From: Natronococcus sp. A-GB1
Lineage (GTDB): Archaea; Halobacteriota; Halobacteria; Halobacteriales; Natrialbaceae
DNA length: 64,000 nucleotides
Reading direction: 5' to 3'
NCBI RefSeq assembly: GCF_029688845.1
Contig: NZ_JARUKW010000017.1
Coordinates: 1 to 64,000, forward strand
Shown here: in pieces, positions 9,429 to 32,413 of the stretch
Position numbering within the stretch: the stretch's first letter is position 1
Layout: every line of letters begins with the position of its first letter
The notes under the pieces: generated by a model
Seen by the model: the letters and a program-made list of their open reading frames with translations, nothing else
Databases searched by the model: none
What the model was told of the DNA's origin: nothing
Translations under genes and position numbers: made by a program

Positions 9429-11393
9429 CTACTCGAGGTCGTCCTCGTCGACGCTCGCGCGTCGGCGCAGCCACTCGAGACCGAGCGCGCCGCCGGCGAT
9501 CCCGGCGCCGGTAGTAAAGCCGGGCATCTCCTCGATGTCGTCGTCCTCGTCGACGGGGTCACCGTCGTCCGGCTCGTCGACTTCGTCGCCGTCCCGGCTG
9601 CTCGCGGAGCTGTTCTCTTCGGTTTCTCGAGTTCCGCTATCCGAGTCATCGGCCGTCGTGTCGTCACCATCGGTGGTCGTCTCCTCCGTCGTTCCGGTAT
9701 CGGTCTCGCCGTCGCCCGTCGTCCCGTCGTCGTCGGTGTCGCTGGAGTTACCAGTGGCGTTCCCATCGGCATCGCCGTCCGTCTCCTCACCGGTGTAGCC
9801 GTCGTCGGTCCCGGCGCTTTCGTCATCGTCGAGCGTCTCCTCGGGGTCGTCGCCGCCCGAGTCGGTCGCTCCATCGTCGCCGTCCGAACCGTCGCTTTCG
9901 TCCTCGTCGGAGCCGTCGTCGCCGTCAGCGTCGTCGCTCTCGGAGTCGTCGTCGGTATCGTTTTCGTCGTCGCTAGCGGACCCCTCGTTCTCGCTATCGG
10001 TGCTCGAGCTGTCGTCGCTTCCCTCGTCTTCATCGCCTCCCTCGTTCCTGCCGTCGTCGCTCGAGTCGTTCCCATCGTCTTCGTTCTCCTCGTCGTCACT
10101 TTCCTGCGTCTCCTCGTCTTCTTCCGTCTCGGATTCCTCGTCCTCGCCGTCGGATCCGGAGCGGACGGCTACCAGCCGTTCGCCACCTGCGTCACCGCTC
10201 GCGGCGACGTAGACGGTGTCCTCGCTGGCGGCGTACCAGTCCGAGAGATCGCCGATATCGAGATCGTCGTGGGTGAACGTCCACTGCTCGGTGCCGTCCT
10301 CGAAGTCGAAGCCGTACAGCGCGTTCACGTGGTCGTCCCCCGGATAGTAGGGGATAATGAGCGTTTCGCCGACAATCACCGGAAGCCGCCAGGCGTCCGT
10401 TCCGCCGCCCTCGCTCCAGTTCTCGCCCGTTCCGTGGTCGGCGCTCTCGAAACCGTGTCGGTCCGCCGTTACACGCGTCTCGTCGGTCATCGCGGGCGGG
10501 AATCTGAACGAGAGTCGCTCGAGCTCCGCGCCGGTTTCGGCGTCCAGCACGGGGTAGGTGTCGCCGTCGGCGATCGAGCCGGTGTAGACCCTGTCGGCGG
10601 TCGCTATCACGTAGCCGTGGGGATCCCATCGCCACTGCTCCCAGTAGGTCCACCGAGTCTCGCCGGTTTCCGCGTCGAACGCGGCGAAGCCAGCGGTGCC
10701 GTCGGCGCCGATTCCGTCGCCGACGGCCGCGTAGACGGACCCGCTCGCGACCGCGAGGGGGACGGCCGCGAACGAAACCGTCGCGTCGTCGACCTCGGGC
10801 GTTCCGGACTCGCCCTCCCGCTCGAGATCGACCGACTCGCGGCGCCACTCGACGTCGCCATCACCGGCATCGAACGCCAGTAGCTCTCCGTCGGCGACGA
10901 GGTAGACGGTGCCGTCGGCGACCGTCGGAGATGTCGATTCGCCGCCCTCGAGGTCGGTCGTCCACCGCACCTCGCCGCTGGTGACGTCCAGGGCCGTGAG
11001 CGCCTCGCCGCCGACGTAGACGGTGTCGTCGGTGACGGCCGGCGTTCCGGCGGCACCGAGTCCCTCCACGGCCCAGAGTACCGATCCGTCACCGTCCTCG
11101 AGCGCGTGGACGTCCGTCCCGGTCCGGAGGTAGACTGTTCCGTCGACGGCCGCGAGGTCGCCCGCCCGATCGTACGTCCACGCTACCGTCTCGGGCTCGG
11201 GAAACGCATCGTCCGTGGGTACGTGTGCGGTGTTGCCCGCGTTCCCACGGTAGGACGACCACCCGTCCCCTTCAGAGTCCGTCGTTCCCTCGGACTCCGT
11301 CTCCGCCGTTCCGGCGGAGGCCAGCACGCTTCCCGCCGCGAGCGCTACACCGGTCGACAGCACCGATCGACGACGCCAGTTTGCCATACTCAC
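9429..11393 (-). CDS. Tat-exported PQQ-binding-like beta-propeller protein with acidic stalk and PGF-CTERM-like tail
   Basis: 654 aa. The N-terminus has the twin-arginine motif RRRSVLS at residues 7-13. Residues about 45-400 are PQQ-like propeller blades of the BamB type (repeated VTDDTVYVGG, VADGTVYLVADG, GSVYAAVGDG). Residues about 410-615 are a low-complexity Asp/Glu/Ser/Thr stalk, probably O-glycosylated. The tail MPGFTTGAGIAGG...LEWLRRR is PGF, a short apolar segment and an Arg cluster, resembling the archaeosortase sorting signal, though with about ten further residues after the Arg cluster. Expected at the cell surface, lipid-anchored; no propeller ligand or activity can be assigned. 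Confidence 0.8.
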   Translation of the reverse strand: MSMANWRRRSVLSTGVALAAGSVLASAGTAETESEGTTDSEGDGWSSYRGNAGNTAHVPTDDAFPEPETVAWTYDRAGDLAAVDGTVYLRTGTDVHALEDGDGSVLWAVEGLGAAGTPAVTDDTVYVGGEALTALDVTSGEVRWTTDLEGGESTSPTVADGTVYLVADGELLAFDAGDGDVEWRRESVDLEREGESGTPEVDDATVSFAAVPLAVASGSVYAAVGDGIGADGTAGFAAFDAETGETRWTYWEQWRWDPHGYVIATADRVYTGSIADGDTYPVLDAETGAELERLSFRFPPAMTDETRVTADRHGFESADHGTGENWSEGGGTDAWRLPVIVGETLIIPYYPGDDHVNALYGFDFEDGTEQWTFTHDDLDIGDLSDWYAASEDTVYVAASGDAGGERLVAVRSGSDGEDEESETEEDEETQESDDEENEDDGNDSSDDGRNEGGDEDEGSDDSSSTDSENEGSASDDENDTDDDSESDDADGDDGSDEDESDGSDGDDGATDSGGDDPEETLDDDESAGTDDGYTGEETDGDADGNATGNSSDTDDDGTTGDGETDTGTTEETTTDGDDTTADDSDSGTRETEENSSASSRDGDEVDEPDDGDPVDEDDDIEEMPGFTTGAGIAGGALGLEWLRRRASVDEDDLE

Positions 11394-27900: not shown

Positions 27901-28601
27901 CCGATCCCGAAGCGGGATTGGTCTCGACGGTCCCCCTCGAGAGCCTCGCGCTCGTGTTCGTCGTCGAACTGCGTACCGTCCTGGCGCGGTTCCCCTTTCT
28001 CTTCGACGAAATTAGCACCACAGGAGGTCGTTCTCTGGAGCGTCTCGTCCGGACCATGGTCTCGGCGTCGGTCTTCGGCCTCCTCGAGGAGGGGCTCACG
28101 GCGGAGACACCGCTCGAAATCGACATTTTCGAGTCTTTTGCAGCCGATCAGCGTTGTCCTTCCGTTCGGATTCGGCGTCGCCGACGGAGCGATAATCTCC
28201 CTCGTTCTCACGGAGGCGCTGGCGATCGGCGGGGAGTTGCCACGAGGTGGAAAGGCCAAACTGGCAGCCGGTGCCGCCGTCGACGTGCTCGTCATGGTTC
28301 GGCTCGCGTTCGTCTGAACCAGCGGGTCTTTCGAAACGACCGAACCGGCAACTCGGCCGTACCCGCCCTGCGCCGACGACACTTCTAGAAGACTTATACC
28401 TATCACGGATCCACCTTGTCTCCGTAGACGATAGTTTCCCTAGCCTGATTTTAAACAATTCCTGAATATTTATATTGCTGCAGTTATACTATATCTAAAA
28501 CGGCCAACAAAATCTGAAATCAAACTGAGCAGACTAAGATCAAAGAAGGATAGCAGCTCGAAATTACCACACACGATCAACGGAAGCGAAAACGCGAAAC
28601 G
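27901..28601. other. 700-base region without an intact gene; possible membrane-protein remnant
   Basis: Between 28138 (TTG) and 28317 (TGA) the plus strand reads LQPISVVLPFGFGVADGA... through a Lys/Ala-rich turn to VDVLVMVRLAFV: two hydrophobic segments with halophile codon use, resembling the C-terminus of a membrane protein. Just upstream, another plus frame (27906-28150) is also protein-like, so this may be a frameshifted gene. I cannot name it. 28430-28560 is AT-rich and holds the promoter of the next gene (GAATATTTATATTG near 28463). Confidence 0.35.
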
Positions 28602-31600
28602 ATGACACCACAAGTACACAACCGAACCGCCGACGTCGATGGGGACGGGATCGACAGCGCCGCAGAGACGCTCGATCTCGACAGCGATGACGAAGCACAG
28701 CATAGCCAGAGCAACCGATCCGGGTTCACGTTCGTTCCCGCGGAGAGTCTCGACGGCCTCGAGTGCCGGATCTCCGAAAAGAGCGAGGGACTCGTCACGG
28801 CTTATCTGACCACGGATTCCGGAACAGTTCTCGAGCGACGAACGATCGCGTCGCTCGACCCGGGAGAGACGTTCGCCTTCGACGCTCGACTCGAAGCTAA
28901 CGCAACCTACTGGATCGTCTGCGACGCTCGCGGACGGAACTTCGTCCGTGGACGAGCCGAGGTCGACTATCCCATCGAGAACGACCTGTTGACGGTCACG
29001 AACGGGATATTCAGCGGATCCGGTGCGGAGTCGACCAGCTACCGATACTGTATCGATCGAATCGGACCGGTGCAAAGCGCAGAACGTGAGGGCGCGATCG
29101 ACCTCGAGAGCGATGACGAGGGACAGTCCTGGGGGTCACTGAACGACCGCTCGGGCGTTCGACTGCGGACGACCGAGCGCGTCGACGGCCTCGAGTGCCG
29201 ACTCTCGGAGCGGTCGGAAGGGCTCGTTACCGGGTATCTGACAACCGACTCGGGGGACGTCATCGAGCGACAGACGATTGCGGTCCTCGAGGCGGGCGAC
29301 ACCGTGACCTTCGAAACGGAACTCGAGGCCGACGAGACCTACCGGGTCGTCTTCGACGCCCGGGGGCGGAGCTACGTTCGTGGACGGGCCGCAGTCGACT
29401 ACCCCCTCGAGTCGGGATCGCTTGCGGTCACCGACGGAATCTACGGCAGCGGCCAGCTCTCTGACAGCTACCGCTACTGTATCGACCGGATCGGGCCTGC
29501 CGACGCCGGAACGGTTCCGGAGACCAGCTTCGAAAGCGAGACGGAATCGACGGACGAGGACTCGGATACCGACACCCTGGAACTCGGGAGCGACGAGGTG
29601 GGCCAGGCCTGGAGCTCGCTCGACGAGCCCTCCGGCGTCCGGTTCCGAGTCGACGAGGCCGTCGACGACGTCACGTGTCGACTGTCCTCGGAGACCGTCG
29701 GCGTCACGACGGCGGTCCTGACCGACGGCGACGGCGACGTTCTCGAGGAGCAGTCGGTCGACGACCTCGAGGCGGGCGACACGTTCGCTTTCGACGCCGA
29801 CCTCGAGGCCGGCGAGACCTACGGGATTCTCCTCGATGCCGACGGCGAGAGCTACGTCCGCGGCCGAACTGCGGCCGACTACCCCCTCGAGAGCGCCGTT
29901 ATCGAGGCGACCCACGGAATCTACAGCGGCGACTACGAGTCCGAGAGCTACCGCTACTGCGTCGATCGGATCACCGTTTCGATCGCCGATTCCGAACCGA
30001 GCGAGCCCGAGGAGTCCGAACCCGAGGAGTCCGATTCGGCGGAGAGTACGATCGATCTCGGCGACGACGAGGAGGCACAGTCTTGGGGATCGCTGGACCA
30101 GCCGTCCGGCGTTCGGTTCCGAGCCGACGAGGATCTCTCGAGGGTGACGGGCCAGCTCTCGGCGGAGACCGACGGCGTCACGACGGCGTCCCTCACCGAT
30201 GACGACGGCGAGACTCTCGAGGAACGATCGATCGCCGACCTCGAAGCCGGTGAGACGTTTTCTTTCGAGACCGATCTCGAGGCGGGCGAGACGTACTGGG
30301 TCGTCTGCGACGCCGACGGCGAGAGCTACGCCCGCGGCCGAGCCGCGGCCGACTACCCACTCGAGGACGACCTGCTTTCGGTCACCCACGGGATCTACGG
30401 CGGCTATCTCGAGACCGACAGCTACCGCTACTGTCTCGATCAGCTCTCCGTCGAGAGCGCCGGCTCGGGTTCGGGCTCGGGCGGCTACGAGACGGAAACC
30501 GAGGAGACCGAACTCGACCTCGGAAACGACGAGGAGGGTCAGTCCTGGAGTACGCTGGACCGTCGCTCCGGCGTTCGGTTCCGGGTCGAGGAGGACCTCT
30601 CGACGGTAGCGGGTCGACTCTCGGCGTCGACGGCGACCTCCTCGAGATCACCGACGGGATCTACGGCGGCTACCTCCAGTCCGAGAACTACCGGTACTGT
30701 CTCGACCGGATCGTCGTCGAGGGCGGTTCGACGTCGTCCGACGAGGCCGAGAGCGAGCCGACCGAGCCGGAGGTACCCGCACTCGAACTCGGCGACGACG
30801 AGGAGGCCCAGTCCTGGGGATCGCTGGATCAGCCGTCCGGCGTCCGCCTGGTCGCGACCGAGAGCGCCGACGCACTCGAGTGTCGGCTCTCGGCGGAGAC
30901 CGACGGCGTCACGACGGCGTACCTGACCGACGACGGCGGCGACGTCCTCGACGAGCGCTCTATCGCCGCCCTCGAGGCCGGCGACGCGTTCGTGCTCAAC
31001 GGCGACCTCGAGGCCGGCGAAGCCTACAGAGTCCTCCTCGACGCCGACGGCGAGAGCTACGTCCGGGGCCGAGCCGCGATCGAGTATCCGATCGAGAGCG
31101 ACTTCCTCGAGGCGACACACGGGATCTACGGCGGCGACTACGAGTCCGATAGCTACCGGTACTGTCTCGAGCGGATCGAACCGACCGAGCCGCAGGAACA
31201 CGAGCCCGAACCGAAGCCGGAGTCAGCTCCGACGCCGGCGACCAACGGACTCATGGCGGAACTGATGACCCGTCCGGACGACGTGACGACGGTCAACGTC
31301 GTCGACGAGTCCTCGATCGACGAGAGCGGTGATCTGGCGGCGGAGATCCTCTCGTACATCGACTCCCGGAACACGGTCAACCACGAGTTCGTGCTGCCGA
31401 TGGGACGCTACACCTGGAACACCGAGTTCGCGGTCCTGGATCCGGTCGAGTTCCTCGAGATCCGGGGCGAACCGCGGGCGACGCTCGAGGTCCGCAACCA
31501 CGGCGTCGACATCGCGTTCCTGTTCGGTCGATGGGCGACCGACAACCCGCCGAAACACGTCATCCTCCAAAATCTCGACGTCGATATCGACGACGAGCGG

Positions 31601-32413
31601 GAGCGAGACGCCGGGCTGATCAGCGCCCACGTCGGTCGCTGTCTGCTCGACAACGTCGAACTCGTCGGCGAGCGCTGGCGACACGGTCCACAGGGCGGGG
31701 ATCGGTACACCTGTATGATCAACACTCGCGACCCGAACGCGCTCTCGTTGATGCGCAACGTGACGCTTCCCGACGGCGAGGTCACCGACCCGAACGAGCC
31801 GTCGGTCGGCCACTCGATCGGCTGCAGCGCCGATCCGCCACACGAGGGGATCAACATCTGGGATCGCTGTTACGTCGAGGACTACGTCGACAACGGACTC
31901 TACGTGCGAAACAGCGTCGGTGAGAACTTCGTCGAGCACAGCATGGCGGTCAACTGCGGGAACGGAAACATTCGGATCGGTGCCGCCGACGAGGCTCGGG
32001 ACTGCAAGATCCTCCTCGACGGCGGCTCGGATCAGACCTACCCCGGAGCCGGCCTCTGGCTCAACGGCGGCGAGGCGATCGCCGAACGGATCGAGATCGA
32101 CGGCACCGACGCCCAGAACGACATCGTCAGAATCAACAGCGACGCCGACGGCGGCCACATCAAGGGACTCGAGCTGTTCTGCGGCCCCGACGTCGCGGCG
32201 CCCGCGATCCGCTGTACGGAGACCAGCAGCACGAACAACCGCGGGCTGACGATCGAGGACTTCGACGTCGAAGACATCACCACCGCCGGCGGCGGCTGCG
32301 TTAGCGTTCGGCGCTCCGACGTCACGCTCAGAAACGGCGTGATCGACGCGTCCTACCGGACGGCGCTTACCGGACACGGCAATCCGGACGTCGACGATGT
32401 CGATATGAGCTGA
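28602..32413 (+). pseudogene. Large repeat protein with C-terminal right-handed beta-helix, frame broken in repeat 5
   Basis: Continuous similarity runs 28602-32413 in two frames. Residues 1-675 hold tandem units of about 115 aa, each opening LxLGxDExxQSWxSLDxPSGVRF, then ETDGVTTAxLTD, LEAGETF, YVRGRAAxDYP, and closing GIYGGxYESxSYRYCxDRI, separated by acidic linkers. Six units are countable. In unit 5 (near 30625-30633) about 196 bases are missing compared with unit 4, shifting the frame; the first frame then runs as junk to 30926. The second frame carries the end of unit 5, unit 6 and a 370-aa parallel beta-helix (from about 31250). No signal peptide is visible at the N-terminus. One conserved Cys per unit (YRYCxDR). 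Function unknown; surface or glycan-binding role inferred. Confidence 0.7.

Follow-up and report, generated by a model that had tools for sequence, protein, structure and literature searches.

A repeat gene with a beta-helix domain, probably recently inactivated, in Natronococcus sp. A-GB1

The repeat gene and its deletion

The window (64,000 nucleotides of contig NZ_JARUKW010000017.1 of Natronococcus sp. A-GB1) carries a repeat gene with an interrupted reading frame (Table 1). The first-pass annotation had described a repeat ORF, a frame break near 30626 and a separated beta-helix frame, and all three are present in the sequence; past the break, the second frame carries one further unit and the beta-helix and extends to 32413. 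DNA repeats within the gene have a periodicity of about 430-480 bp, matching the spacing of the units. Units and linkers were delimited with a profile built from the units. The repeated units are real, but the length of ~115 aa first given for them is too short, since the profile finds ~132 aa plus linkers. The single conserved cysteine per unit must likewise be replaced by up to three Cys positions, occupied in 69, 57, and 73 of 74 units. Of the six units counted earlier, four are complete, one is a hybrid, and the last is unit 7 of a seven-unit gene.

Table 1. Features of the repeat gene and its upstream region in the window.
Feature	Position	Strand	Remarks
A+T-rich conserved block, likely promoter	28460..28504	+	Upstream of the repeat gene; nearly invariant in four Natronococcus orthologues
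Conserved leader to start codon, ACGGAAGCGAAA..GCGAAACG ATG	28580..28604	+	Four-species alignment
Disrupted repeat ORF	28602..30926	+	774 aa, final ~99 aa frameshifted
Unit 1	28671..29063	+	Profile match; groups with orthologue unit 1
Unit 2	29097..29492	+	Profile match; unit tree
Unit 3	29577..29972	+	Profile match; unit tree; structure model
Unit 4	30051..30446	+	Profile match; unit tree; structure model
Unit 5, first third	30513..30626	+	89% identity to G005 unit 5
Deletion junction	30626..30627	+	688-694 bp absent relative to seven-unit orthologues, 1 mod 3
Unit 6, last quarter, other frame	30627..30712	+	92% identity to the end of G005 unit 6 and the next linker
Unit 7, downstream frame	30782..31177	+	Profile match; unit tree
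Linker and C-terminal right-handed beta-helix domain, downstream frame	31178..32413	+	Alignment with 12 relatives; distant relatives pass PF13229; plasmid relatives annotated as right-handed parallel beta-helix

In a tree of 74 units, units 1-4 of the window gene are placed with orthologue units 1-4, and its last unit with orthologue unit 7. Because units cluster by position across species, the missing parts could be identified as belonging to units 5 and 6. The residual "unit 5" is a hybrid, of which the left side aligns with orthologue unit 5 and the right side with the end of unit 6. A loss of 196 bp within unit 5 had been proposed; instead, about 690 bp are gone between units 5 and 6 (688 bp by comparison with genome G005, 694 bp with G002). 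The cut joins the two units with loss of both register and frame, and translation from the normal start can therefore no longer yield the full-length protein with its beta-helix. No homology was found between the two parental stretches at the junction when these were compared in relatives: 9-13 of 30 bases are identical before or after the break, and the longest word shared within 60 bases is 9 bp. The deletion thus appears to be an illegitimate (homology-independent) event.

Relatives, unit fold, and the beta-helix domain

Among 61 genomes searched, G005, G007, G006, and G002 have the C-terminal part with 76-88% identity, and paralogues with 52-66% identity (C-terminal part) occur elsewhere in Natronococcus. 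The loci compared include those of N. jeotgali, N. sp. A-GB7, N. pandeyae, N. amylolyticus, a Natrialbaceae MAG, and CG52. Every multi-unit copy outside the window genome (11 of 11) is a single open frame, of 1034-1523 codons. The comparison with relatives that the first-pass annotation had proposed did reveal intact forms: all four orthologues are open, three with seven units and that of N. jeotgali with four. The change in N. jeotgali is in frame and comprises, besides the fewer units, a 12-aa gap within its third unit. Seven further paralogues in the genus, with 5-6 units each, are open too. The hypothetical protein WP_252490908.1 of Natronococcus sp. CG52 belongs with the genus orthologues to the same family of proteins encoded by one open frame; these are intact and have five to seven units, or four in the case of N. 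jeotgali, whereas the window gene is broken. The RefSeq start of the CG52 homologue (L084:10822) lies inside unit 1, ~36 codons in.

The window locus lies between korAB/usp and mcm, a position conserved between species. In G002, G007, and G006 the gene has the same two neighbours as in the window, korAB and methylmalonyl-CoA mutase; in G005, where it is on a short contig, the mcm side is kept. Elsewhere in the window (9429-11393, minus strand) a Tat-exported protein is encoded that resembles the PQQ-type beta-propeller neighbours of paralogues in L054, L056, and L042. Very acidic lipobox lipoproteins of ~250 aa with no Pfam match also recur near paralogues of the repeat gene (L055:5030-5806, L056:7298-8029, L042:11055-11819).

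A structure model of units 3 and 4 is all-beta, with a mean pLDDT of 88. In Foldseek searches against the PDB, PHR beta-sandwich domains were the best single-domain matches (probability 1.00). Lower scores were obtained for glycosidase jelly rolls (carbohydrate-binding parts) and for phage baseplate or tail proteins, both of them multi-domain matches that superpose poorly. Phage tail, F5/8 type C, and galactose-binding proteins were among the matches in a viral library. Based on the predicted fold and the domains that accompany it, the repeat unit is likely a jelly-roll beta-sandwich, and the units probably bind glycans.

It had been stated that the unit corresponds to no named domain, which is nearly right: two families match, below their cut-offs. 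The choice-of-anchor R family (NF041539) reached 23.7 and 23.5 bits against a 30-bit cut-off (best E 4e-5), with 3 of 26 units matched at E<0.01. DUF4082 (PF13313) reached 26.2 bits in the paralogue, below its gathering cut-off of 28.4 (best E 9e-6), and did not match the window gene. Both are likewise domains of surface-type proteins with a weak sequence match to the unit; the window family differs from them in its tandem arrays, in having up to three Cys per unit, and in scoring below cut-off. PDB sequence searches with the repeat and C-terminal profiles gave no match, a PHROGs search with the window protein returned nothing useful, and no report on the repeat family was found among titles and abstracts of the literature. 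Across the class, 21 of the 392 genomes sampled have the unit. The family is a tandem, predicted jelly-roll unit that passes no curated cut-off and occurs in chains with beta-helix domains; naming it would improve annotation, at present "hypothetical protein".

The C-terminal domain of the window gene scores below the PF13229 cut-off (25.9 bits). Relatives of the domain at 43, 31, and 29% identity score 31.2, 45.5, and 28.1 bits, respectively, and such relatives, which pass Pfam Beta_helix, support the earlier reading of a parallel beta-helix end, as do annotated records. An AlphaFold2 model of unit 7 with the beta-helix, built with 8 sequences, had a pLDDT of 46 and was left out of the fold search. 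In A-GB7, the beta-helix cores of the paralogues L039 and L045 (alignment columns ~180-420) share 68-83% identity with each other but only 57-72% with their respective orthologues. The preceding unit and the extreme C-terminus, by contrast, follow orthology. This pattern indicates that the core has moved between loci in A-GB7, and such a transfer would fit a specificity-bearing part.

Inactivation, artefact, and switching

The best reading of these sequence comparisons is that the window gene is a recently inactivated member of an unnamed family, and mostly an ordinary, fresh gene break. Specifically, we consider it likely (with a probability of about two in three) that it is a recently inactivated copy of a multivalent, probably glycan-binding Natronococcus protein composed of seven jelly-roll units and a right-handed beta-helix. 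In the intact protein, the seven beta-sandwich units would stand in tandem, separated by acidic linkers, ahead of the beta-helix. The protein would act through many weak glycan contacts made by the units, and the beta-helix core would set ligand specificity. A recent illegitimate event would then have removed the ~690 bp that began within unit 5 and ended within unit 6. The dN/dS ratios (Nei-Gojobori, NG86) of the retained parts are 0.17-0.34, in the same range as between intact orthologues, and are ~0.2 on either side of the break; these low values, together with the conserved upstream DNA, suggest that the break is recent.

The same lack of a decay signature in dN/dS would also be expected if the strain had an open seven-unit gene from which the draft assembly lost ~690 bp. 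The deletion is seen in the assembled sequence of one draft in 57 contigs, repeats are classic assembly trouble spots, and poly-G runs stand at some contig ends. However, the left and right parents lack homology at the junction in relatives, which makes an overlap-based collapse unlikely, and the remaining genes of the contig are in frame: a control comparison of ~45 genuine genes on the window contig with A-GB7 revealed no other clear frame break. We regard such an artefact as unlikely, though it is the most serious alternative. Apparent extra frame breaks on the contig were judged by codon-position G+C to be antisense pseudo-ORFs.

The sole other copy in the window genome is on contig C31 (L009). 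It has six units and adjoins an asparagine-synthase-like gene, as do the second copies in G007, G003, and A-GB7. This paralogue has likewise lost its frame, at ten consecutive G within unit 2 (C31:9619-9628). Its frame break may reflect slippage, a homopolymer error, or the loss of both copies; unless the assembly is wrong, the window genome makes no full-length member of the family. G runs of at least 9 are rare in the 4.5-Mb genome (only about six, half of them at contig ends). Homopolymers of G or C were observed at contig ends at C13:10-24 and C54:222219-222240, both probably artefacts, and a run of twelve G is found inside a contig at C1:253077-253088. The poly-G at the ends of contigs C13, C23, and C54 was given no weight, being probably an artefact of contig ends.

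The first-pass annotation had offered phase variation or plain decay as explanations. Recent inactivation fits best because the orthologues are all open, the break is out of register, and the junction lacks homology; switching by recombination between units found no support, and switching by slippage at the G tract of the paralogue has a low probability. When examined as a contingency gene, the window gene has no hypermutable tract, its deletion is out of register, and the G10 tract is present only in the paralogue. Phase or antigenic variation, in which deletions or tract slippage toggle the proteins in a population and the genome was sampled with both copies off, would account for the second out-of-frame copy at a rare G10 tract, for the variation in unit number among orthologues (4 vs. 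7), and for the exchange of the beta-helix core between the two A-GB7 loci. We nevertheless consider it improbable. The deletion in the window is irreversible, G or C tracts of at least 7 are absent inside the genes of all other family members, and the eleven copies in other genomes are all open. Homologous exchange between units preserves the frame; recombination in register and in frame would alter length, as in the four-unit N. jeotgali, and would not act as an on/off switch.

A broader proposal is that Natronococcus maintains a contingency-like set of modular, probably glycan-binding jelly-roll/beta-helix proteins with exchanged cores, switched by slippage or deletion and exported without a known signal. 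We find it more doubtful still. A survey of literature titles and abstracts found no report of tract-based switching of such genes in haloarchaea. Least probable is that the split gene remains functional, either as a truncated N-terminal product of four units with a frameshifted end or as a beta-helix translated from an internal start, since no homologue is split and the shifted tail is rich in R, S, and T and unlike anything conserved. In favour of such a split form, both parts retain intact reading frames and the downstream frame has its first ATG (31253) where the beta-helix domain starts.

Location and relatives outside the genus

The apparent absence of a signal peptide was borne out both for the window gene and for the Natronococcus relatives examined: no Sec or Tat signal peptide was found in them by hydropathy and inspection. 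The only hydrophobic stretch among them, in G008, is far upstream of the likely start and is missing from its close sister G004. Outside Natronococcus, the unit and beta-helix domains occur in one chain preceded by a Tat signal, with the order of the two sometimes inverted. These Tat-exported haloarchaeal proteins (G030 and the G254/G283/G368 group) share with the window family the same two domain types in one chain; they differ in having a twin-arginine signal where the N-terminus is seen and in their often reversed order. A signal peptide is thus lacking across Natronococcus, while relatives of the same architecture are Tat-exported. The Cys positions of the unit are conserved in the signal-less Natronococcus members and mostly absent in the Tat-exported relatives; few lineages contribute to this correlation. 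An intracellular location would also be consistent with the conservation of up to three Cys per unit where the signal is lacking.

A role of the window gene as a viral tailspike or tail fibre found no support, as it is not among virion genes and the locus, at its conserved korAB/usp-mcm position, is not a provirus. Scans of viral contigs for relatives found none. A weakly related unit is present in ORF23 of the Halorubrum tailed virus DL1 and in provirus-like proteins (L078-L082), with 34.7% identity over 94 aa (E 1e-4). Proteins of the DL1 ORF23 type differ from the window family in having a single unit and no beta-helix, and are structural proteins of the tail region; the haloviral gene bearing the unit lies between those for the tape measure and a fibronectin type 3 protein.
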